Source: a virus
Direction: 5' to 3' (one strand)
Virus record (IMG/VR): IMGVR_UViG_3300020455_000008
Span: 20,946-84,945 of that record
Length of the DNA stretch: 64,000 nucleotides
Below, piece after piece: positions 16,484-60,757 of the stretch. Every line of letters begins with the position of its first letter. Positions within the stretch are counted from its first letter, which is position 1. The notes under the pieces were generated by a model. The model was not told the DNA's origin, ran no database searches, and worked only from the letters and a program-made list of their open reading frames with translations. The position numbers were made by a program, and so were the translations under genes.

Positions 16484-17866
16484 ATGAAAATTTATCTGAG
16501 TGGAGTAGTGAGGAAAGATCGCTTAGGTCTTTTGATTGAAGCTGGTATTCAAAACGTGGTTATTGACTACTCAGTAGCTAAGGGCTTCTCAGTTCAAGAG
16601 TTTGAGCAGATTGCCAATCACTTTGATAGCATAATGTTAGAATATGACCTCTCCAGTCAGTGGTCTAAGATCAAATATCTGTGGACCAGCTCAGACTTAC
16701 GTCATGCAAAAGATATTGAAAAGCATGGTTCACTAGAAGAAGCACAAACTTATCACATACAGAGAATCACTAAACGTGTAGCAGATTACTTTATCTTTGC
16801 TCAGTCTATTCAGCACGTAGTGGACGTGGTATGGACACCCCATTTACCTATTGAGTATGAGTTTGAACCTAACGAAAGTATTGAACAGCAAAAAATAGGG
16901 AGACTAAAAAAAGTTTTCAAAAACTTTTCTGACTATATTTACAACTGTTCTCACATAGGTATTCCCAATGATGTTGGGTTACAAGACGTTAAAGACGAAA
17001 TAAAGCCCCATATTGCTTCTCTAAAGTCGTTTGGGATAAAAACACATAGGTGGGGTAGGGCTGACAAAGAAACAGCTCTCACAGGCCTATTTTGGAGTTC
17101 GTCCTCTTCTAACTGGGTAAGTGGGTCAAAACATGGGGTCACTTTTGAGTACGTAGGAAATCTAAAGCTAACTACGTATCATGGGTCTAAGGGTTCGGGT
17201 AAACAGATTAGAACTAAGCTCAAATCAAAATGTGAAACAATTGGACTTGACCACAATCTCTTAATGAACGATGACCGTAAGACTGTAAATTTATGGAATC
17301 TACATCAATGGAAGCTTTTGTCTAAAGATGTAGATTTTGTTAGTGGGTACTGGTCGACGAGGGAGCGGGATGTGAAAGATAAACAGCTTAGTGTTATACA
17401 AAATAACTCAAATTCTCAGCTTGCAACTCAAGACCAAATTGGCTCATACTTACGGAATTGTAATTCATGCTACCTAAGCGCAACTTGCCCAGTATACGAG
17501 TCGGATTCGACTTGTAAGATAACGTCTACACCGAAGGTTGAGACACCTAATGACGTGCAGGCTCTACTCAATCAAGTGATTCAGATCCAAGGGGAGAGAG
17601 TTCTTTTTGCTTCTATGTCAGAGCGAATTCAGAACGCTGGAATCAACCCCGAAGTCTCCAAGGAAATGGAGACACTTACAAAACTAATGAAAGACGCTAA
17701 AGAGATCACCTCCGTTGGTGGGGGTGACGAAGTTACGATTCGAGCTAAGGGGTCGGGTGTCATATCGAGATTGTTTGGCGGATATGGGCGCAGTGGTGGT
17801 GGTTCAAAACCATCTACATCGGAGACTATAATAGATGTCTCCCCAATGGAGTCAAAGGATGACTAG
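16484..17866 (+). CDS. Conserved phage protein of unknown function, 460 aa, with Cys cluster
   Basis: No enzyme family recognised. The N-terminal 300 residues alternate strands and helices in a way compatible with an alpha/beta barrel (KIYLSGVVRKDRLGLLIEAG, VVIDYSVAKGF). Residues about 325-350 carry a tight Cys set (CNSCYLSATCPVY, then STCK) like a zinc or Fe-S site. A helical segment and a Gly/Ser-rich tail follow. I recall similar Cys regions at the ends of other phage proteins of unknown role. It has its own promoter and overlaps the reductase start. Confidence 0.65.
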   Translation: MKIYLSGVVRKDRLGLLIEAGIQNVVIDYSVAKGFSVQEFEQIANHFDSIMLEYDLSSQWSKIKYLWTSSDLRHAKDIEKHGSLEEAQTYHIQRITKRVADYFIFAQSIQHVVDVVWTPHLPIEYEFEPNESIEQQKIGRLKKVFKNFSDYIYNCSHIGIPNDVGLQDVKDEIKPHIASLKSFGIKTHRWGRADKETALTGLFWSSSSSNWVSGSKHGVTFEYVGNLKLTTYHGSKGSGKQIRTKLKSKCETIGLDHNLLMNDDRKTVNLWNLHQWKLLSKDVDFVSGYWSTRERDVKDKQLSVIQNNSNSQLATQDQIGSYLRNCNSCYLSATCPVYESDSTCKITSTPKVETPNDVQALLNQVIQIQGERVLFASMSERIQNAGINPEVSKEMETLTKLMKDAKEITSVGGGDEVTIRAKGSGVISRLFGGYGRSGGGSKPSTSETIIDVSPMESKDD

Positions 17867-20843
17867 AAAATACTTCAGAAACGATCTAGGAGAACTTGTT
17901 TATCTACGCTCATATGCACGTTGGCTTGAGTCTGAGCATAGACGAGAGACTTGGAATGAAACCGTCAGTCGTGTAATGAGTTTCTTGTTTAAGGATTCAC
18001 CCGTCCAGCAAGAAGAGATAGACCTCATCGAAGAAATGATTTTAGAGCAGCAAGTTATGCCTTCTATGCGTTCATTGTGGGCGAGTGGAGACTTTGCTTC
18101 TGTTGATAATACTGCAATCTATAACTGCTCATTCCTACCCATCGATAACCTAAGAGCCTTCTGTGAGTTAATATACATCCTAATGCAAGGTACAGGCGTA
18201 GGTTTTTCGGTAGAGGGTAAGTTTGTTAATAAGCTACCTACTGTAGCCCAAATAGATGATACGCAGGTCGCTTCCCATCAAGTGGGGGATAGTGCTACTG
18301 GTTGGGCAGACGCAGTTTTTTTCGTAGTTACTCATGCGTGGAAGGGCTACGGCTCTATTGAGCTAGACTACTCACTTGTTAGGCCAAGAGGTAGTCGCTT
18401 AGTTACCAAGGGTGGAAGAGCAAGTGGCCCAGAGCCATTGAAAGCTGCCATCGAGTTCTTGATTGAGACTATCTACTCTGCTGAGGGAAGACAGCTCACA
18501 ACCCTAGAAGTTTACGATATGTGTTGCTCTTTAGCAGAAGTAGTAGTCGTAGGGGGTGTTAGACGTTCAGCTATGATCTCGTTTAGCGATCCCGATGATG
18601 AGTCAATGCGTCACGCCAAAGATTGGAAACGAGGTAACTTCCCACTCAAACGATATATGAGTAATAACAGTGCGTACTTCCAAGAAAGGCCAAGCAAAGA
18701 GGTCTTCGATAGGGAGTGGACACAACTCGCAGAGTCGGGGAGTGGTGAACGAGGTCTATCTATAGACAACTGGCATAGATATGCCCCAAGACCACAGGGT
18801 GGCACTCGATCTAACCCCTGCGTGACAGGCGATACTAGAGTTATGACAGAGGATGGCTTTATTCAGATAAAAGACTTCCTTAATGACCCTAAGACTTTAG
18901 TGATCGATTCTCGATTTGGTACTGAGAAGCAGGGTTATACTAGTGATAAAGGCGCTTTCATCACGGGTGAAAAGCAAGTGTTTAAATTAACTACAAAGCA
19001 AGGTTACGAAGTTAAGCTAACGGCAGATCACCGAGTTATGACCTCTAAGGGTTGGGTAGAAGCAAAAGATCTTGAGCTAGGTGATAAAATTCACATATGT
19101 AATAATGGCGGGATGTTTGGGTCTGAGGGCAATGAGGAGATAGGTGCTATTGCGGGGTGGTATGCAGGTGATGGAACTATTGCTGATGGAAGCCCAAGGT
19201 TATACTTCTACCACGAAGATAGAACTCTTACTTCTTACTTCAAGAGCTGCATAGAGAGCGTTGTGGGGCACGAGGTTAATATCTCTGAATATCTTCCTAC
19301 CAAGCGAGAGCACATAGAATCGGCTTCTTTGAGAGACTACTTGCCTACTGATGACCGAACTAAAGTTCCAGAGATAATTTGGAGAGGAACAGAAAAATGC
19401 CAAAAGTCTTATCTGTCGGCTCTGTTCTCAGCAGATGGCTGTGTGCTAGGCGACTTGAAAAAGGGCGCTTCCATTCGACTGCACTCAACTAAAATTGGTC
19501 ATCTGAAGGACGTGCAGCAAATATTATTAAACTTTAATGTTTATTCAAAGATATACACAGGTCGAATGAAAGAGGGCTTTAGGATAATGCCCGATGGTAA
19601 GGGGGGGTTGAAGAACTATTACTGTAAGGAATCAGCAGAGCTGATGATCTCTTGTAAAAGTTTGGTCACATTTTCACAAAGGATTGGGTTTATGCGACAG
19701 GATAAGCAAGAAGCCCTTAACTCGATTATTGACTCTTACAAGAGAAGACCTAATGCAGATAAGTTTGTCGCAGACTTTACGGGGCTTGAGCCTTTGGGGG
19801 TAGAGACTGTGTATGATTTGACTGAAGAGACTACACATTCCTTTATTGCAAATGGATTAGTCGTCCATAACTGCCATGAAATTGGTTTAAGATTTAGAGA
19901 ATCAAATGACCCTTGGTCGGGCGAAGGTGGGGGCGGTCAGTTCTGCAATCTCAGTGCTGTAGTTGTTCGCCCTGAAGACACATTAGATACACTAAAGCTA
20001 AAGGTGAGACTTGCTACGATCATTGGTTGTACTCAAGCTCAATTTACTAATTTTCCATATTTGCGCCCCGCCTGGAGAGAGCTATGTGAAGAGGATAGAT
20101 TAATTGGTGTGGACCTAACTGGTCAATGTGACCATCCAACTCTGTTAGATAATGTAGAAAACCTATCCATATTAAACGATGTGGCAATCTCTACAGCTAG
20201 TGAACTTTCTGAAATGTTGGGTATTAATATGCCAGCAGCAGTAACTTGCGGTAAACCAAGTGGCAACACCTCCCAAATGGTGGATTGTGCAAGTGGTTTC
20301 CATCCTCGTTACAGTGATTATTATTTTAGGCACGTTCGAGTTAGTGCAGATGATCCACTCTCAGCATTATTGAAGTCTGAAGGTGTACCTATGTTTCCTG
20401 AAGTAGGTCAAGAGAATCTTGATGAAAAAGATGTTAAAACATGGGTAGCACGTTTCCCCGTTAAGTCACCTAGTGGTTCGATGACTCGTAACGATGAGAG
20501 TTCATTTGATCAAATGGAGCGTTATCTGACAATAATGAAGGGTTGGTGTAGGGATCGAGGTCACAATCAATCAGCTACCATTTATGTAAAAGAGGACGAC
20601 TGGGGTAAGGTGGGTGAATGGGTTTGGGATAACTTTGACGACATCGTTGGGCTATCATTCCTACCTTACGATGGCGGTAACTATAAATTAGCGCCCTACG
20701 AAGAGATCTCTCAAGATGAATATGAGGACTGCATATTAGACTTCCCAAATATTGATTTCCAAAAGCTTTCTGAATTTGAAGATTTTGATCAAGGACAAGG
20801 TTCTACTGAGTTAGCTTGCACAGGTGGAACGTGTGAACTATAG
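17859..20843 (+). CDS. nrdJ: Class II (B12-dependent) ribonucleotide reductase interrupted by an intein
   Basis: 994 residues from the ATG at 17859 (GGAG seven bases upstream); an ATG at 17835 would add eight residues. Without the 351-residue intein the enzyme is about 643 residues. Extein signatures: YNCSFLPIDNLRAF, GTGVGFSVEG, a SNP/CHEIGLRF site formed after splicing, VTCGKPSGNTSQ, and the C-terminal redox pair in ACTGGTCEL. It reduces ribonucleotides for DNA synthesis using adenosylcobalamin and no oxygen. The intein sits exactly before the active-site Cys of the NPCxE motif, so unspliced protein must be inactive. Confidence 0.9.
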   Translation: MTRKYFRNDLGELVYLRSYARWLESEHRRETWNETVSRVMSFLFKDSPVQQEEIDLIEEMILEQQVMPSMRSLWASGDFASVDNTAIYNCSFLPIDNLRAFCELIYILMQGTGVGFSVEGKFVNKLPTVAQIDDTQVASHQVGDSATGWADAVFFVVTHAWKGYGSIELDYSLVRPRGSRLVTKGGRASGPEPLKAAIEFLIETIYSAEGRQLTTLEVYDMCCSLAEVVVVGGVRRSAMISFSDPDDESMRHAKDWKRGNFPLKRYMSNNSAYFQERPSKEVFDREWTQLAESGSGERGLSIDNWHRYAPRPQGGTRSNPCVTGDTRVMTEDGFIQIKDFLNDPKTLVIDSRFGTEKQGYTSDKGAFITGEKQVFKLTTKQGYEVKLTADHRVMTSKGWVEAKDLELGDKIHICNNGGMFGSEGNEEIGAIAGWYAGDGTIADGSPRLYFYHEDRTLTSYFKSCIESVVGHEVNISEYLPTKREHIESASLRDYLPTDDRTKVPEIIWRGTEKCQKSYLSALFSADGCVLGDLKKGASIRLHSTKIGHLKDVQQILLNFNVYSKIYTGRMKEGFRIMPDGKGGLKNYYCKESAELMISCKSLVTFSQRIGFMRQDKQEALNSIIDSYKRRPNADKFVADFTGLEPLGVETVYDLTEETTHSFIANGLVVHNCHEIGLRFRESNDPWSGEGGGGQFCNLSAVVVRPEDTLDTLKLKVRLATIIGCTQAQFTNFPYLRPAWRELCEEDRLIGVDLTGQCDHPTLLDNVENLSILNDVAISTASELSEMLGINMPAAVTCGKPSGNTSQMVDCASGFHPRYSDYYFRHVRVSADDPLSALLKSEGVPMFPEVGQENLDEKDVKTWVARFPVKSPSGSMTRNDESSFDQMERYLTIMKGWCRDRGHNQSATIYVKEDDWGKVGEWVWDNFDDIVGLSFLPYDGGNYKLAPYEEISQDEYEDCILDFPNIDFQKLSEFEDFDQGQGSTELACTGGTCEL
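18819..19871 (+). other. Intein with LAGLIDADG homing endonuclease domain
   Basis: 351 residues inside the reductase. It begins Cys1 with the block A pattern CVTGDTRVMTEDG, contains a block-B-like KLTADHRVMTSKGW, and ends SFIANGLVVHN followed by Cys as the first C-extein residue. The penultimate His and final Asn needed for splicing are present. The endonuclease domain shows two LAGLIDADG-type helices, IAGWYAGDG and LSALFSADG, each with its acidic residue, so it may still be able to home. Confidence 0.9.
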
Positions 20844-25464: not shown

Positions 25465-25741
25465 ACCAAAAGAGACATACGATCAATGTATCCTCAAAAT
25501 TGAGGATGGTATTGTTTATTACTGCGTAGACTCAATACTAAACATATTGACTGACGATTTTGAGTCGTGGGTCAAAGACAGCCCAAGTTTCTCAGAACAA
25601 GATGAGAGTTACGAATATCAAGCTATAACACTAGCGTTAGAATGGTTTGATCACAATATGCACAGTGCATATCTTGGTAGGTATTCACCTAGATATGTAT
25701 TTAACACAGAAGACATGGAAAATAATGAATGTGGATCATAG
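25433..25741 (+). CDS. Hypothetical acidic protein, 102 aa
   Basis: Overlaps the nuclease-like gene by 32 bases and the methyltransferase start by 17. The product is acidic and Tyr-rich (SEQDESYEYQAITLALEWF). No motif recognised. Placed between a nuclease-like gene and a methyltransferase, it could belong to a modification module. Confidence 0.55.
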   Translation: MTEKPQTIYLEPKETYDQCILKIEDGIVYYCVDSILNILTDDFESWVKDSPSFSEQDESYEYQAITLALEWFDHNMHSAYLGRYSPRYVFNTEDMENNECGS

Positions 25742-27089
25742 CGAAAAACTTACCCATATATCCCTCTGCACAGGCTACGGGGGGATTGATCTTGGACTCA
25801 AACGAGCTATCGGATCAGTTAGCACAGTCTGTTATGTGGAGATCGAAGCCTTCGTCATCGAAAACTTGGTTGCGAAGATTGAAGCGGAAATCATCGACCC
25901 CGCGCCTATTTTCACAAACCTTAAAACCTTCCCTTGGGAACACTTTAGTGGACGAGTGGACATCCTCAGTGGAGGGTTTCCTTGTCAACCATTTAGTGCC
26001 GCAGGAAGAAGGGGCGGAGATGAAGATCCCCGACACCTGTGGCCATACATTGTCGATGGAATCAAACGGCTTGGAAGACCTCCCATTGTTTTCTTCGAGA
26101 ACGTGGAGGGAATCCTCAGCTCAAAGCTCAAGGGTGACCAATGGTCAGACCCCGAAGGAACACCCGTTTTGCTTCATGTCCATCGAGAGCTGGAAAGATT
26201 GGGTTACAGAGCAACGTCAAGCGTATTCTCAGCGGCTGAAGTTGGCGCAACACACAGAAGAAAAAGGGTCTTTATTCTCGGTGTCAGAAATGACCTCTCA
26301 GACAAAGGTAGGGAATGGATCACTCAAAGCATGGGCAACACCAAGGGCGAGCAAAATAGGTTCAGAGAACTTGGAGAAGTGGAAGAAGAGAGCAGAGAAA
26401 GGTCAAGTCAGCACAATGCCACTCGGTTTACAAGTGGAGGTTTCAGAACAGCATACCCCGCACCAAGGGGAGCAGAGCAATACCCCTATGAGCCACCAAG
26501 AACTCAATTGGGCAACTCCCAACACGATGGATCACCTATCCCCGAAAAGTGCGGAAACCCTAATGAGACAGGCCACAACTGTCAGAAAGGGCCGCAAATA
26601 TCCATCGAATCTGAGAGAGCAGGTCGATCCGAAGTCTATGCAAATATACAAGGAAACGAACTGGGCAACCCCCACGTCAAGGGATTGGAAGGGGGCGTAC
26701 TCAGAGGAGGGTCTGATCTTAAATCCAAAATGGGTTGCACTATTACCCGATCAAGTAAAAGAGAATCAGAAAATGTGGACAACCCCGATCAGTCGAGATT
26801 GTTACGAGATAGAAATGAAACAACAAATACCGAATCGGAAAGACGGGAAGACTCGCTTAGACACGATGCCGAGACAGATTCATCATCAAGAGGGGTACAA
26901 GGGGAAATTGAATCCGAGGTGGGTGGAAATGTTGATGGGTTTACCCATTGGATGGACTATGCCGAGTTGTACGAATCCTGTGATAGTAGAATTGACGAGC
27001 TTAGGATGTTGGGAAACGGAGTTGTACCTGACACCGCCAAAAGAGCCTTCACAGTTTTGTGGCAAATCTTACGTAGAGGAAGATATTAA
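25725..27089 (+). CDS. dcm: C5-cytosine DNA methyltransferase
   Basis: 454 residues from ATG 25725 (GGAA six bases upstream). Motif I is SLCTGYGGIDLGL, motif IV GGFPCQPFSAAG (catalytic Cys87), motif VI FFENVEG, motif VIII RRKRVFILG, and motif X MLGNGVVPDTA near the C-terminus, so the enzyme is complete. The long target-recognition region (about 210-410) is hydrophilic with repeated LGN/GNP steps. It likely methylates cytosine in phage DNA to escape restriction. A second open frame of 460 codons runs through the same DNA, starting four bases later. Confidence 0.92.
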   Translation: MNVDHSEKLTHISLCTGYGGIDLGLKRAIGSVSTVCYVEIEAFVIENLVAKIEAEIIDPAPIFTNLKTFPWEHFSGRVDILSGGFPCQPFSAAGRRGGDEDPRHLWPYIVDGIKRLGRPPIVFFENVEGILSSKLKGDQWSDPEGTPVLLHVHRELERLGYRATSSVFSAAEVGATHRRKRVFILGVRNDLSDKGREWITQSMGNTKGEQNRFRELGEVEEESRERSSQHNATRFTSGGFRTAYPAPRGAEQYPYEPPRTQLGNSQHDGSPIPEKCGNPNETGHNCQKGPQISIESERAGRSEVYANIQGNELGNPHVKGLEGGVLRGGSDLKSKMGCTITRSSKRESENVDNPDQSRLLRDRNETTNTESERREDSLRHDAETDSSSRGVQGEIESEVGGNVDGFTHWMDYAELYESCDSRIDELRMLGNGVVPDTAKRAFTVLWQILRRGRY

Positions 27090-27111
27090 TGATAGTAATA
27101 CTAATCAGTAG
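25729..27111 (+). CDS. Overprinted frame inside the methyltransferase gene (WATP / LNPxWV repeats)
   Basis: 460 residues in the +1 frame of the methyltransferase, starting at an ATG four bases after the dcm ATG, so one ribosome site could serve both. The product shows four WATP/WTTP units (AWATPRASK, NWATPNTMD, NWATPTSRDWKG, MWTTPISRD) and two LNP[KR]WV units, the last in LNPRWVEMLMGLPIGWT. I know that ending from phage and bacterial proteins annotated beside methyltransferases, but not its function. The repeats mirror LGN/GNP steps in dcm, so they may be a by-product of dcm constraint. Uncertain whether it is translated. Confidence 0.45.
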   Translation: MWIIAKNLPIYPSAQATGGLILDSNELSDQLAQSVMWRSKPSSSKTWLRRLKRKSSTPRLFSQTLKPSLGNTLVDEWTSSVEGFLVNHLVPQEEGAEMKIPDTCGHTLSMESNGLEDLPLFSSRTWRESSAQSSRVTNGQTPKEHPFCFMSIESWKDWVTEQRQAYSQRLKLAQHTEEKGSLFSVSEMTSQTKVGNGSLKAWATPRASKIGSENLEKWKKRAEKGQVSTMPLGLQVEVSEQHTPHQGEQSNTPMSHQELNWATPNTMDHLSPKSAETLMRQATTVRKGRKYPSNLREQVDPKSMQIYKETNWATPTSRDWKGAYSEEGLILNPKWVALLPDQVKENQKMWTTPISRDCYEIEMKQQIPNRKDGKTRLDTMPRQIHHQEGYKGKLNPRWVEMLMGLPIGWTMPSCTNPVIVELTSLGCWETELYLTPPKEPSQFCGKSYVEEDINDSNTNQ

Positions 27112-28259: not shown

Positions 28260-28514
28260 ATGTATGATCTATCACATCTATCAACAGATAAATATGTAGT
28301 TGACAAACTTAGAGATTTTTCTGAAGAACTGGATCTTGATGAAACAATATGCGCTATCTGCGGACTAAGCCCCGACAAATGCCCATGTTACGTACATCCA
28401 CCTCACTCATGCACGTATGAAGACTGTGACTGTGCTTGTGATGACCCTGAGATAACCTGTTCATGCTGCATAGTAGAACTATGTGATTGTGAGAAGAAAA
28501 ATGGAGTTCAATAA
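28260..28514 (+). CDS. Cys-rich small protein, 84 aa
   Basis: The ATG at 28260 has GGAGGTG upstream. After 30 acidic residues there are 13 cysteines in about 50 residues (CAICGLSPDKCPC, CTYEDCDCACDD, TCSCCIVELCDCE), a pattern for zinc or other metal clusters. It overlaps the cyclase start by 14 bases, so it heads the operon with the cyclase and the membrane protein. No family recognised. Confidence 0.65.
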   Translation: MYDLSHLSTDKYVVDKLRDFSEELDLDETICAICGLSPDKCPCYVHPPHSCTYEDCDCACDDPEITCSCCIVELCDCEKKNGVQ

Positions 28515-29349
28515 TAGAATTCTAGCAATTGTACTCTTAGATATTATCGGCAGCACTGCGTTTGTAGAACGGTATGGCGCTAGAAAAGCAGCAGAATGGT
28601 TACAGTATCACGATAGACTCACTCGATCACTACTATATAAATTTAATGGTCGAGAGATAGATAGATCGGATGGATTCCTTCTTAGTTTTGATCGTCCTAT
28701 AGACGCTGTTAATTTCTGCTTGCACTACCAGCAATCAATTCCCAAAAAAACTAAGTTGCAGACTCGTATTGGTATGCATTGGGGAAAAATTGTAGAAGTT
28801 GTTCAAGATGAAAAATTTACTAATGTTGGAGCTAAGAGCATTGAACTTGAAGGTCTAGCTAAAAATATTACTGCTCGTACTATGTCTTTGTGTGGAGCGG
28901 GTCAAGTTTTGTTGACTAAAGAAGCTATGATAGCTGTGCAGAGTAGAACTAATCGCTTTACTCCATCAGGTACACGTTATGCGTGTGTAGGTCTCTATCG
29001 CTTCAAGGGCGTAAAGAAACCACAACAGATCTATGCCGTGGGTGCAACGATTGACTCTCTGCAACCCCCACCCTCTTCAGACAAAGTAAAGCGACTAGGT
29101 GGAGCTAAAAAGATCCGCAGCCGAATGAGAGATAGACAGTTAAAAGATCATATCTCTTGGGTATTTTACAGATTAGCCTTTATTTGTGCTATTTATTTAG
29201 GTCTATTCTTTTGGCCATTTATATCTACTGAAAGCGCAAGGATTACATGGGGTATAGATCACATTTTTTGGTGGATAGATGATGTCAAGAATTTCTTTAG
29301 CATTGTCATCGAAGCATACAAAACAGTTAGAAGGGATCTAGGATTTTGA
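28501..29349 (+). CDS. Class III nucleotidyl cyclase with C-terminal membrane helix
   Basis: 282 residues from the ATG at 28501. The cyclase homology domain runs from 6 to 182: LLDIIGSTAF with metal Asp14, GREIDRSDGFLLSF with second metal Asp57, IGMHWGKI, and KNITARTMSLCGAGQVLLT with Asn122 and Arg126 of the transition-state pair, ending GLYRFKGVKKPQQIYAVG. All catalytic positions I can place are intact. A membrane helix at about 223-243 (VFYRLAFICAIYLGLFFWPF) anchors it. It would make a cyclic nucleotide (base unknown). The next gene overlaps its stop. Confidence 0.78.
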   Translation: MEFNNRILAIVLLDIIGSTAFVERYGARKAAEWLQYHDRLTRSLLYKFNGREIDRSDGFLLSFDRPIDAVNFCLHYQQSIPKKTKLQTRIGMHWGKIVEVVQDEKFTNVGAKSIELEGLAKNITARTMSLCGAGQVLLTKEAMIAVQSRTNRFTPSGTRYACVGLYRFKGVKKPQQIYAVGATIDSLQPPPSSDKVKRLGGAKKIRSRMRDRQLKDHISWVFYRLAFICAIYLGLFFWPFISTESARITWGIDHIFWWIDDVKNFFSIVIEAYKTVRRDLGF

Positions 29350-55979: not shown

Positions 55980-56468
55980 ATGTTAAATAAAGACGTATAT
56001 AGAGGGTTTAAATTTAACGTTACCATAACTAGTAATACTAATTTTTTTCAAGGTAGAGCTTCTTTTCAAAAAGTGAGTGGTATTCAATCTTCAGTAGAAG
56101 TTGTAGAGTATCGTGAAGGCAATATGGCTGACCGCATGGAAAAAATGGCGGGTATGATGAGTTACGACTCTGTGACTCTTGAGCGTGGCCTTTCTGATGA
56201 TGACGCTTTTAACACTTGGATGAAGACTGTTTGTGATGTAACTAATGGGCCTGCTAGTTCTAACGGAAGCGATAAATCATATCGTTGTGATGTGAAAATT
56301 GAGTTGCTAAACAAGCAAGGACTTGCTGTAAAAACATACACTTTAAAAGACGCTTGGCCGAGTGAGTACACCGTAGGTGACTTTGACGCTACGTCTAATG
56401 ATGTAGTAATTTCTACCTTAGTTTTACAACATCATGGAATCAAAGAAGAGAATATCTCTCAAAACTAA
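55980..56468 (+). CDS. Tail tube protein
   Basis: 162 residues. The pattern YRGFKFNVTITSNTNFFQG, ASFQKVSGIQSSVEVVEYRE, SVTLERGLSDDDAFNTWMK and NKQGLAVKTYTLKDAWPSEY is the T4 gp19/Hcp-like tube family. It stacks as hexamers inside the sheath; directly downstream of sheath as usual. Confidence 0.92.
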   Translation: MLNKDVYRGFKFNVTITSNTNFFQGRASFQKVSGIQSSVEVVEYREGNMADRMEKMAGMMSYDSVTLERGLSDDDAFNTWMKTVCDVTNGPASSNGSDKSYRCDVKIELLNKQGLAVKTYTLKDAWPSEYTVGDFDATSNDVVISTLVLQHHGIKEENISQN

Positions 56469-56520: not shown

Positions 56521-57348
56521 ATGATTACAGATAATGATAGCGTAGTGCTACCTATTGGACTTGAAATTGATGGAATTCGATACCGCAAAGTCGTGATTGA
56601 CGAAATGACAGGTGTTGATGAGGAGAACCTTTCCTCACGCAAGGTTCGCAATAATGGTGCAAAGGCAATCTCTCTTTTACTCCGAAGGTGTATTCAATCT
56701 ATCGAAGGCGTATTTGAGCAAAAGAGAGATCCTTTGTCTCTTATTGATGAGAAGTATGTCCGTAATATGTATGTGGCAGACAGAGACTTCTTAGTAATGT
56801 CAATTCGTACTCTGAGTGGAGACTCGGAGTTACTTATGAATATAGATTGCCCATCCTGTGGTCAAGAGGTTCACCAGCTTGTAGACCTCAAGGCTTTAGA
56901 CGTATATGAGTGGGATGAGAATGAGCCTGTGGAGCTGACTGTAGATCTTCCAAGAGGGTTCTATAACCAAGAGACTCAGAAGTATGACAAGCGTATTACT
57001 TGGGCTTTCCCGAAAGGAACTTCTCAAGAGAGATTGGCTGCTTTACCTCAGAATGAAATGGGTACGAACTTAATTGCCATTGGTCTACGCTCAGTCGAGG
57101 GGCGTGAGTCTATACCGAGTGCTGATGAGGTACGTAGATTAAGTGTACGAGATCGAAGTGCGCTTGCCGATGAGATTATGGAGAACTCTGTTGGGGTAGA
57201 GACTCAAGTGGAGATCTGTTGTGATTCATGTGGACATGAGTTTAAGACAGAGGTGAACACTGTGGGTTTTTCCAATTTGGGTCAACGAAAGACCCAAAAG
57301 CCCTCAAGAAGTGGGACGAATGGTCGGAGAAAACGCAAAATTCGTTAA
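56521..57348 (+). CDS. Tail assembly chaperone, short form (zinc-finger type)
   Basis: 275 residues. The C-terminal half has two Cys pairs (CPSCGQE and CDSCGHEFK) forming a likely zinc site, as in baseplate or chaperone proteins of T4 gp26 type. It sits immediately before the tape-measure gene. A GGGTTTT heptamer in frame at 57264-57270 allows a -1 shift into an open downstream frame, giving the long form. Confidence 0.75.
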   Translation: MITDNDSVVLPIGLEIDGIRYRKVVIDEMTGVDEENLSSRKVRNNGAKAISLLLRRCIQSIEGVFEQKRDPLSLIDEKYVRNMYVADRDFLVMSIRTLSGDSELLMNIDCPSCGQEVHQLVDLKALDVYEWDENEPVELTVDLPRGFYNQETQKYDKRITWAFPKGTSQERLAALPQNEMGTNLIAIGLRSVEGRESIPSADEVRRLSVRDRSALADEIMENSVGVETQVEICCDSCGHEFKTEVNTVGFSNLGQRKTQKPSRSGTNGRRKRKIR

Positions 57349-57494
57349 TTCGTACAGTAGTTGCAATCGCAGAGCGTTGGCATTGGTCAAGATGTGATAT
57401 ACTCAGTTTACCCACACGACAAAGGGCTATATACTTAGAGGTATATGAAGAAATAGTAGATAAAGAACGAGAAGCGAGTAGACCTCGGAGGTAG
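56521..57494 (+). CDS. Tail assembly chaperone, long form by -1 ribosomal frameshift
   Basis: Reading G GGT TTT at 57264-57270 and slipping back one base continues for 74 codons to TAG at 57492-57494. The extension reads TKDPKALKKWDEWSEKTQNS, then VVAIAERWHWSRCDILSLPT and QRAIYLEVYEEIVDKERE, a sensible helical domain with no other start codon or gene assigned to the 150-base gap. The fusion is 324 residues. This matches the G/GT-type chaperone pairs that guide tape-measure assembly. Confidence 0.7.
57264..57270 (+). other. GGGTTTT slippery heptamer
   Basis: In the zero frame it is read G GGT TTT, the X XXY YYZ form of a -1 slip site, 78 bases before the zero-frame stop. It joins the chaperone to the open -1 frame ending at 57494. 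Confidence 0.7.
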
Positions 57495-57496
57495 TT

Positions 57497-60400
57497 ATGG
57501 CAAATCCACAGCTAACGCAAACGATTAACCTTAAGATACAGGGAACTCGGGAAATCTCGAACGGGATTAGAGGTGTGACTCAAGCGCTAGATAGGATGAC
57601 AGAAGCCTTTAATCGTTCTTCTAGGAATCAAAAACAACACCAAAAACAGACAAAGACGAGTCAGCAAGGGTTATCTAATATTCAGGCTGGCTTAGTTCAG
57701 TTAAGTACTTGGTTGCTGAATACGAATGTAAGGATAAACAATTTATTCGATAACATGACTAGGCGCTTTGTGGAATCGGAGACTGCGGTTAATCAGTTAA
57801 AGATTACTATGGGTTTAGCAGGGGAGTCTCAACGTAATCCAATGTTTGCGGCTAGGTTTGAAGAATTCGAGAGATTCAAGTCTACCATAGATGAACTTGC
57901 TATGACGACTGAGTATACGAAGCGAGAGGTAGCGGACGCATTTACAGCTTTAGTTCAAAGTGGTCGTAGTGGTAAAGAAGCAATGAAGATGTTGCATGGT
58001 ACTTTGCAACTTGCCACAGCTTCGGGCGGTCAGCTTGATTTAGGGCAAGCTGTAAATATTGCTACCTTAACTTTAGGTACTTTGGGGGGTAAGGTAGATG
58101 AGACTCACGACAACTTAAATATGTTATTGAAGACCTCTCAAAAGACTAAGATTGGCTTTAAGGATTTAGAGCAAGTACTTGGTAGTCTAAGGGCAACATA
58201 TACAAGGTTTAGTGAGTCTACAAAAGTAAGTAGAGAAGCAGAGATCATGGCAATGGCTGCTGCGGCTAGGACAATGGGTTTAAGTGCAGCTAACTCTGGT
58301 GAGAAAATAGATCAGTTCTCAAGACAGATATTAAGTCTTGTAGAGGTTGTAGGTAAGTCGGAGCTAAGGACTTTAAAAGGATTAAAGTCCGAAGGTCGGT
58401 TTAGTATGAAGCGGGAGAGATTATTACAATTCTTCGGTGTTGGCACTGATCTCGACAAATTAAACAACGAAATGGATACACAATTTAAAGATGTAACCTT
58501 AGCTAGGGATGAATTTGTCAAAAGACAAATTATGGAGTTTGATCAACAAGATCAGAAATATAAGAAGAGAACTATTTCTAGTTTGATGGAAAAATTAGTA
58601 GATCGGTTTGTAGCTCTACAAAATACTAAAGGGGCGGACGCAGAAGCTATTGCAAAAACTGCTTTTGGTACTGAAGCTGCTTCTTTTATGTTAAAAGCTA
58701 TTCTAAAGTTAGCCGAGGGAACAGAAGGCGGTATTGCAGAAGCAAGTAAAAGATTCTCTGAGTTAGTACAAAATATCTCTAAAAATAACGGAGAGCTTGT
58801 TAAGGCTCAGAATGAGTCTTTAAAGACCTTAGCAAAGCGAATGGAGTTAGTAGAGAGCGCAGAAGACGCTTTAGCGACTACGATCTTCCAGCATGATATA
58901 TATGCTAATGCAGTGTTAGATACTTATAAAGAGATGGTTGGTGCAACTAATCTCTTAATGAAGAACAATGAGTCTTTAGCGTCCTCTGTTTCTTTTATTG
59001 GTCGTACCATGCAAGTACTCACAGGGGTTGGTACTACATTAGGGTTTACTTTAACGGCAATGGCTACCTTCAGTATTGCTCTGAAGTACTCTTTACAAGG
59101 CGCTACAAAAGCGACTAAAGGACTAGGGGGCACATTAAGGGCATTTGGTGAAATGTTTCTTAAACCGACTCTTATTGTTCTTGGGCAAATGATTGGCGGT
59201 ATCGCATTATTGTCTTTGGGTATTGTTGCCTTGATGAGACATTTTTCGGGTGCACAGGGAATAGGCGAGGGTTTCAGTATTGTATTAGAGAAAATAGGTA
59301 ATCGTGCAAAGGCCGCAGGGGGGTTGATTCAGTTAGCATTTTCTAATTTATCCACTGATAAGTCTTTAGTTCAGTTGACTAGTAGATTTTACGAGCTTAG
59401 GGACAGTATAGATGGGCTTAGAAGAAAACAGCTTGATGTGTCACTATGGGCAACTGATAGTAATGAACTTAAAAGAAAGTATGAAGAGCTATCAAAAATA
59501 AATGAGGTATTAGGGAAGTCGGGGCGTAAGGCTTTAGTAGAGTTTGAGCTGGGTGAAGGCGGTCAAGAGACTATTTCTTTCATGGCTAAAGTAGGCGATC
59601 AATTAAAGGCTTTAGCTAATGGGTTATCTATCATAGGAGAAGCTGCGATCCAACCTCTTATGTTTAGTTTAAGTTACATATTTGAGGGGTTAGGTTTATT
59701 CTTTAATTATACCCTAAATCTTTTGCGCTTCTTACTTGGTTGGCTTTTTGTTTTTTCTGACGAAGCCAGTTTTATGACCTCAGTTTTAAAGACTCTCGGC
59801 TATGTGTTAGGCACTATATTATCTGTTTATTTAATGTCTAAAGTATGGGGTTTATTTATTGGAACATTAGGAAGTATCTACAATTTTTTTACACGTCTTG
59901 GTCAAGGTGTAGTCAACTACAATAGTAGTCTACTTAATATGCAAAGACGTACTGATCTCCTTAATGCTAGTAAGCAGCAAGAAATAAGGTTGTTAGACAC
60001 GTTAAAGCTAAAATATTTACAAGCAACAAATCAAGTAGCCAAGCATAGACTTGCGATTAAGAAGTTAGGAAATCAAAGCAGAACCTCATTTCAAGATTTA
60101 AGTATCTCTGTTCAAACTCTAGGAGGTGGTTTCGCCACTTTAGGTGGGGCTGTGAGTTTGCTTGGGTATACATTTGAAAATGAAACGTTTCAAATGTATG
60201 GGAATTGGATAATGATGGCAGGTGGCCTTGTAAGTGTGCTACCCGCTATACTTGGGGCCATCGGTAAGATGATAACAGCTCTGAAATCATTAAGGGAAAT
60301 ATCATTGGTAACTGCCTTAGCTACGCTTAAAATATGGGCCCCGTTTCTTATTGTATTTGGCCTACTAGCTGGGCTTATTTATCTCTTTTCTAATACTAAA

Positions 60401-60757
60401 GCTCCGAAGGTCAAAACACCAAGCCCAGGCTCAAGTGTACCATCATCCACAGAAGATATTTTTGCACTTGATAGAATACAAAGAAAAAATTTAAATATGT
60501 CTACTTATTTAGATCCTGCGCAGCAAAGTCATTATTCTGTACCTAATACTTCTTATATAGACTCTGCTACAGTGCCCTATGCTTCTCCTACTAGTATGAA
60601 TTCGGGTACGACTGTAGTTCATCATTTTCATATAAGAGAACAGAATATTAATGGAGTCCAAAACCCTAAAGATTTTGGTCATCAAATGAAAAGAGAGGCC
60701 CAAAAGAGTTCTAGCCTTGGGTATAGTACGTCAGGCGTAACTGAAAAACCAACATGA
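57497..60757 (+). CDS. Tape measure protein
   Basis: 1086 residues, the longest uninterrupted structural gene. Long helical stretches; early signature TLGTLGGKVDETHDNLNMLL and an ARTMGLSAANSGEKIDQFS region typical of tape measures; hydrophobic helices near 510-590, 745-800 and 940-1000 (ATFSIALKYSLQG, MIGGIALLSLGIVALM). It sets tail length and may form a channel in the host membrane. Ribosome site CGGAGG lies inside the end of the frameshifted chaperone. Confidence 0.92.
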   Translation: MANPQLTQTINLKIQGTREISNGIRGVTQALDRMTEAFNRSSRNQKQHQKQTKTSQQGLSNIQAGLVQLSTWLLNTNVRINNLFDNMTRRFVESETAVNQLKITMGLAGESQRNPMFAARFEEFERFKSTIDELAMTTEYTKREVADAFTALVQSGRSGKEAMKMLHGTLQLATASGGQLDLGQAVNIATLTLGTLGGKVDETHDNLNMLLKTSQKTKIGFKDLEQVLGSLRATYTRFSESTKVSREAEIMAMAAAARTMGLSAANSGEKIDQFSRQILSLVEVVGKSELRTLKGLKSEGRFSMKRERLLQFFGVGTDLDKLNNEMDTQFKDVTLARDEFVKRQIMEFDQQDQKYKKRTISSLMEKLVDRFVALQNTKGADAEAIAKTAFGTEAASFMLKAILKLAEGTEGGIAEASKRFSELVQNISKNNGELVKAQNESLKTLAKRMELVESAEDALATTIFQHDIYANAVLDTYKEMVGATNLLMKNNESLASSVSFIGRTMQVLTGVGTTLGFTLTAMATFSIALKYSLQGATKATKGLGGTLRAFGEMFLKPTLIVLGQMIGGIALLSLGIVALMRHFSGAQGIGEGFSIVLEKIGNRAKAAGGLIQLAFSNLSTDKSLVQLTSRFYELRDSIDGLRRKQLDVSLWATDSNELKRKYEELSKINEVLGKSGRKALVEFELGEGGQETISFMAKVGDQLKALANGLSIIGEAAIQPLMFSLSYIFEGLGLFFNYTLNLLRFLLGWLFVFSDEASFMTSVLKTLGYVLGTILSVYLMSKVWGLFIGTLGSIYNFFTRLGQGVVNYNSSLLNMQRRTDLLNASKQQEIRLLDTLKLKYLQATNQVAKHRLAIKKLGNQSRTSFQDLSISVQTLGGGFATLGGAVSLLGYTFENETFQMYGNWIMMAGGLVSVLPAILGAIGKMITALKSLREISLVTALATLKIWAPFLIVFGLLAGLIYLFSNTKAPKVKTPSPGSSVPSSTEDIFALDRIQRKNLNMSTYLDPAQQSHYSVPNTSYIDSATVPYASPTSMNSGTTVVHHFHIREQNINGVQNPKDFGHQMKREAQKSSSLGYSTSGVTEKPT

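Follow-up and report, generated by a model that had tools for sequence, protein, structure and literature searches.

The window, by which we mean the whole stretch of DNA analysed, covers 64,000 bases of a virus record that is 84,945 bases long. In its tail region, entirely on the plus strand, a gene for the tail tube protein (55980..56468; PF06841, E 1.4e-35) lies directly 5' of an open reading frame (56521..57348; hereafter the 0 frame) that encodes a 275-aa chaperone of the T4 gp26/gp51 family (PF12322), in which residues 110/113 and 234/237 form two CxxC pairs. Near the end of this gene, and in register with it, is the slippery heptamer G GGT TTT (57264..57270), which is preceded by an internal Shine-Dalgarno-like (SD-like) sequence, GAGGTGA (57250..57256; anti-SD energy -7.1), and followed, starting 5 nt past it, by an 8-bp candidate stimulatory hairpin, TTTGGGTC-AACGAAA-GACCCAAA (57276..57298). 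The -1 frame is open over 57246-57494, and its part from the slip onward (57270..57494) is a predicted extension of 74 codons plus a stop, here called the T domain; the predicted fusion therefore has 250 + 74 = 324 residues. Its stop lies two bases ahead of the ATG of the tape-measure gene (57497..60757; PF10145, E 9.1e-10; phrog_4704 tape measure, E 9.4e-15), so that the chaperone gene pair sits between the tube and tape-measure genes, the position typical of lambda-type chaperones. The initial annotation had described G GGT TTT at 57264 ahead of a 74-codon -1 frame ending beside the tape-measure start, and our positions agree with it; the peptide that it gave for this frame, AERWHWSRCDILSLPTRQR, is present, and its gap of 150 bases measures 148 from the 0-frame stop to the tape-measure ATG.

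PF12322 matches the 0-frame protein with E 2e-12 and 47.7 bits, above the curated cut-off of 24.5. The baseplate hub family phrog_150 also matches it (E 4.4e-11), as do gp26/gp51-type models when compared with a model of the protein. The four cysteines are invariant in all 24 aligned chaperone proteins; the family match and these cysteines bear out the earlier description of a zinc-finger-type chaperone. In the AF2 model, the residues ahead of the slip are mostly predicted with confidence, and residues 249-275 have a pLDDT near 31. No relative was found in searches of solved structures or when genome_contigs was scanned with the chaperone alignment (A2), and a search of plasmids with the window chaperone protein gave no match.

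Coding in the -1 frame and the slippery site

Past the 0-frame stop, the -1 frame is under purifying selection: dN/dS between the window and five relatives is 0.075 (L002), 0.044 (L003), 0.083 (L005), 0.132 (L006), and 0.113 (L026), and the same region read in the 0 frame gives 0.88-1.10. Within the overlap, neither frame is clearly favoured by dN/dS, as is expected because the sequence there is doubly coding. Among six sequences, synonymous variability is 0.52 over codons 1-247 versus 0.06-0.09 in windows from codon 248, and the heptamer codons are identical in all six; in close relatives, codons from the heptamer onward are nearly unchanged, with synonymous sites elsewhere in the gene near saturation.

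The T domain might instead be a separate gene, with ribosomes reinitiating close to the 0-frame stop, as is apparently the case in the bacterial injection loci described below, where a 4-base stop/start overlap marks the start of DUF6760 in 18 of 19 Actinomycetota loci. For the window we consider reinitiation very unlikely, since the drop in synonymous change begins at the heptamer, about 80 bases 5' of that stop, and since the -1 frame contains no ATG, GTG, or TTG in any of seven sequences (the window, L002, L003, L005, L006, L026, and L027) and therefore lacks an independent start of the usual kind. In relatives farther out, start codons do occur within the shifted frame, and for those relatives reinitiation is therefore possible.

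Canonical heptamers (GGGTTTT, TTTTTTC, AAATTTT, or TTTTTTT) lie within the open overlap in 22 of 23 distinct -1 loci, the exception being L035. As a background, an in-frame heptamer of the form X XXY YYZ was counted at 26 of the 4489 codons upstream (20 of 21 -1 loci; L031 was left out), and a heptamer in the overlap is thus more frequent than expected by chance. Runs of six or seven T in L027, L029, L008, L018, and L085 would also be compatible with a shifted message produced by slippage of RNA polymerase rather than of the ribosome. However, G3 is followed by no more than T5 in the window, and L010 has AAATTTT; short runs are weak substrates for RNA polymerase slippage, and we regard this explanation as extremely unlikely. 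It is also true that one base would fuse both frames, as if a recent indel, or an error in sequencing, had cut the 0-frame gene short, but the 23 distinct -1 loci, including those of weak identity, repeat the two-frame layout, so that the relatives already refute truncation and leave it a probability close to nil. A second heptamer, T TTG GGT at 57276, was considered as the slip site; GGGTTTT was preferred because the second one lies inside the hairpin and is altered to T TTG GGG in L006.

The candidate stimulatory signals are less uniform. GAGGTGA ends 7 bases ahead of the heptamer, and 4.3% of the gene's other stretches are as strong; an SD-like stretch ranking in the top 11% for its gene was found in 12 of 21 loci (L035 and L085 were left out of this analysis and of that of the hairpin). 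The hairpin has an energy of -10.9 kcal/mol and z -3.5 (36-nt window, 300 shuffles). Hairpins with z <= -2.8 occur in eight of the 21 loci (the window, L002, L003, L026, L008, L025, L012, and L018), a weaker stem is kept in L005 and L006, and virtually no stem was found in L027, L020, and L030-L032; a stimulatory hairpin is not general among the loci. Note that the bases of the hairpin likewise encode both frames, and therefore their conservation is no proof of structure. These signals may resemble the dnaX cassette.

We are highly confident that one gene with one start yields two tail-assembly chaperones, G (275 aa) and GT (324 aa), by a -1 slip on G GGT TTT, probably with assistance from the SD-like sequence and the hairpin. 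Most ribosomes would produce the 275-aa gp26-type protein, G, and a minority would slip into the -1 frame at the heptamer, probably aided by the internal SD-like sequence and the downstream hairpin, to produce the 324-aa GT, whose last 74 residues would form the helical, DUF6760-like T. By analogy with lambda, G may coat the tape measure and T may recruit the tube protein, and both G and GT would depart before the tail is completed.

The T domain in phages and bacteria

The T domain of the window is predicted to form three helices (mean pLDDT 81.5). As judged by profile comparison, it is related to Pfam DUF6760 (PF20546): its match of 13.2 bits is below the curated cut-off of 27, and, of 26 T domains, 17 have a DUF6760 match with E no higher than 1 (best, 3.6e-7), but a profile of T domains matches the DUF6760 profile with E 6e-9 and a probability of 95.9%. 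In addition, the DUF6760 ORF from L045 is detected with a model of the -1 domains (E 8e-6). A search of phages with the T domain of L009 gave no match.

Relatives were collected from scans of viral_contigs and phage records, which gave 32 distinct testable loci. All 32 have a shifted-frame extension, in -1 in 23 and in +1 in nine. The -1 set consists of 21 IMG/VR sequences including the window, the uncultured phage LR756511, and Xanthomonas phage XacN1; the +1 set consists of five Streptomyces phages, Listeria phage LIS04, Bacillus phage SP-15, Streptococcus phage GXN1, and the uncultured LR756508. L033, whose contig ends ahead of the region, was left out of the counts, as were duplicates (L004, L011, L019, L021-L024, L036-L039, and the second records for BRock and SP-15). 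Both L015 and L086 were counted, although they are nearly identical across the chaperone region. For the alignments, L002 was left out of A3 and A4, and L008 (contig end) out of A4. The initial annotation had named stops in the -1 frame, or a missing slippery site, in relatives as what would speak against a frameshift; the shifted frame is open in all testable loci, and only L035 and the nine +1 records depart from the canonical -1 heptamer. The joined gene is annotated in none of nine annotated phage regions examined, and LR756511 and LR756508 carry no annotation; there are thus phage records whose -1 or +1 extension lacks a joined-gene annotation.

A blind search was carried out with a model made from the -1 domains only on 2247 six-frame ORFs of 23 loci. 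The top twelve matches are predicted T domains, among them five Streptomyces +1 frames (E 8e-5 to 0.004); weak matches include LR756511 (E 0.062) and LR756508 (E 0.35). The T domains of LIS04, SP-15, GXN1, and XacN1 do not appear among the matches listed by this search, and therefore their assignment rests on position and alignment by eye. The +1 domain of GXN1 (L083:2300-2515) weakly matches the tail assembly protein family phrog_39 (E 0.024), a match that may link the T domains of other phages. Three related +1 phages (L082, L016, and L083) have in common CC-CGA-TT just 5' of the 0-frame stop, a possible +1 site.

DUF6760 also occurs in 19 of 296 Actinomycetota genomes drawn. It begins at the 4-base overlap (GTGA, ATGA, or CTGA), in -1, in all but L061, and the ORF 5' of it has gp26-like motifs in 18 of the 19 loci, the remaining one (L059) being cut by its contig. 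These upstream ORFs were chosen via motif strings selected by the analyst, and a Pfam search found PF12322 in none of eight upstream proteins; the probable kinship with phage chaperones is based on a profile comparison in which five of them match the phage chaperone profile (E 2.6e-11). In four loci, of Streptomyces anthocyanicus, Rhizobium and Ensifer plasmids, and Actinacidiphila, both domains follow the tube gene in one frame. Sheath and tube genes are found near the DUF6760 loci, which would be working injection machines. Domains of the T type seem to be joined in differing ways in other phages and in bacterial injection machines. In L053 and L056, the DUF6760 ORF has no ATG, GTG, or TTG start and the overlap at the stop is CTGA, so that CTG may be the start codon.

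T4 gp26 and gp51 and known two-protein systems

A frameshift of this kind is already known. Lambda G/GT and its counterparts in long-tailed phages resemble the present case in having two proteins from one start, a -1 slip, and a position between tube and tape measure, with neither protein expected in the virion (review, PMC5009743); unlike lambda G/GT, the first domain in the window belongs to the T4 gp26/gp51 family and has two CxxC pairs. The same review describes the tail-chaperone frameshift as widely conserved except in T4. The conserved trick of tail-chaperone genes invoked in the initial annotation accordingly holds insofar as the shifted frame is open in all relatives that could be tested, but is too simple as worded, because T4 is excepted there and the window gene is of the T4 gp26/gp51 family. 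In T4, gp26 and gp51 are hub-assembly chaperones, according to PMC3004832.

PF12322 covers T4 gp26 nearly end to end (residues 1-206 of 208; profile match P 4.9e-8), and in gp51 it covers residues 1-201, leaving about 48 residues. Compared with T-domain profiles, this gp51 C-terminus gives P 9.4e-5 (A3; probability 58.8%), 2.5e-4 (pooled), and 0.039 (A5 alone), and its pooled score of 24.3 compares with at most 13.3 across 60 column shuffles. As controls, six other gp51 segments gave 0.01-0.59 and gp26 gave nothing. L066 (a near copy) and L074 (frame broken early) were left out of the gp51 profile. In the blind search, the ranks after the twelve predicted ORFs are held by three gp51 proteins of other T4-like phages (E 0.76, 1.2, and 3.4; none individually significant), all three aligned at the C-terminus and two with their best alignment there; of the seven gp51 loci searched with the -1 model, four (T4's own, L076, L077, and L079) are absent from the listed gp51 matches. 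These comparisons make the link between T4 gp51 and the T domain suggestive, not proven. The T4 genes end at the start of the next gene, and therefore have no extension frame behind them.

With these observations we lean, by a small degree, towards T4 being no exception to the two-chaperone rule: gp26 would act as G and gp51 as GT, two related genes of the PF12322 family, without a frameshift, and DUF6760 would everywhere be the T half, joined to a gp26-type half by frameshifting (-1 or +1), by gene overlap, by simple fusion, or by gene duplication. A two-gene solution has a precedent in phage 0305phi8-36, of another lineage, where G and GT have counterparts encoded by two genes, with no need of a shift (PMC2147016). 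A +1 shift at TTT-CGC near the stop is proposed for HF1-like haloviruses (PMC7230728), and TTTCGC occurs near the stop in three of the five Streptomyces phages. DUF6760 itself is a domain type common to the window T and to the bacterial loci, where it is a separate overlapping gene.

The links to DUF6760 and to T4 are of most interest here. A literature search, which mostly did not extend to subscription journals and so is weak evidence of absence, found no frameshift reported for the PF12322 family, no account of DUF6760, and no description of gp26/gp51 as G/GT. With these links, the function of DUF6760 becomes predictable, bacterial contractile injection systems would be tied to the control of phage tail assembly, and both the exception made for T4 and the role of gp51 become directly testable.

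Elsewhere in the window, an ORF at 28483-29349 has a weak nucleotide-cyclase match (PF00211, E 5.8e-4), below the cut-off, and a B12-type ribonucleotide reductase ORF (17835-20843) contains an intein with a LAGLIDADG domain (PF14890, E 8e-18; PF14528, E 3.8e-15). At 25647-27111, two long ORFs in different frames have 1.36 kb in common, and each of them has matches to DNA-methyltransferase families of phages, the first to PF00145 (E 1e-33) and phrog_363 (E 2.9e-50) and the second to phrog_1008 (E 1.7e-12). Going by these matches, this looks like real dual coding.
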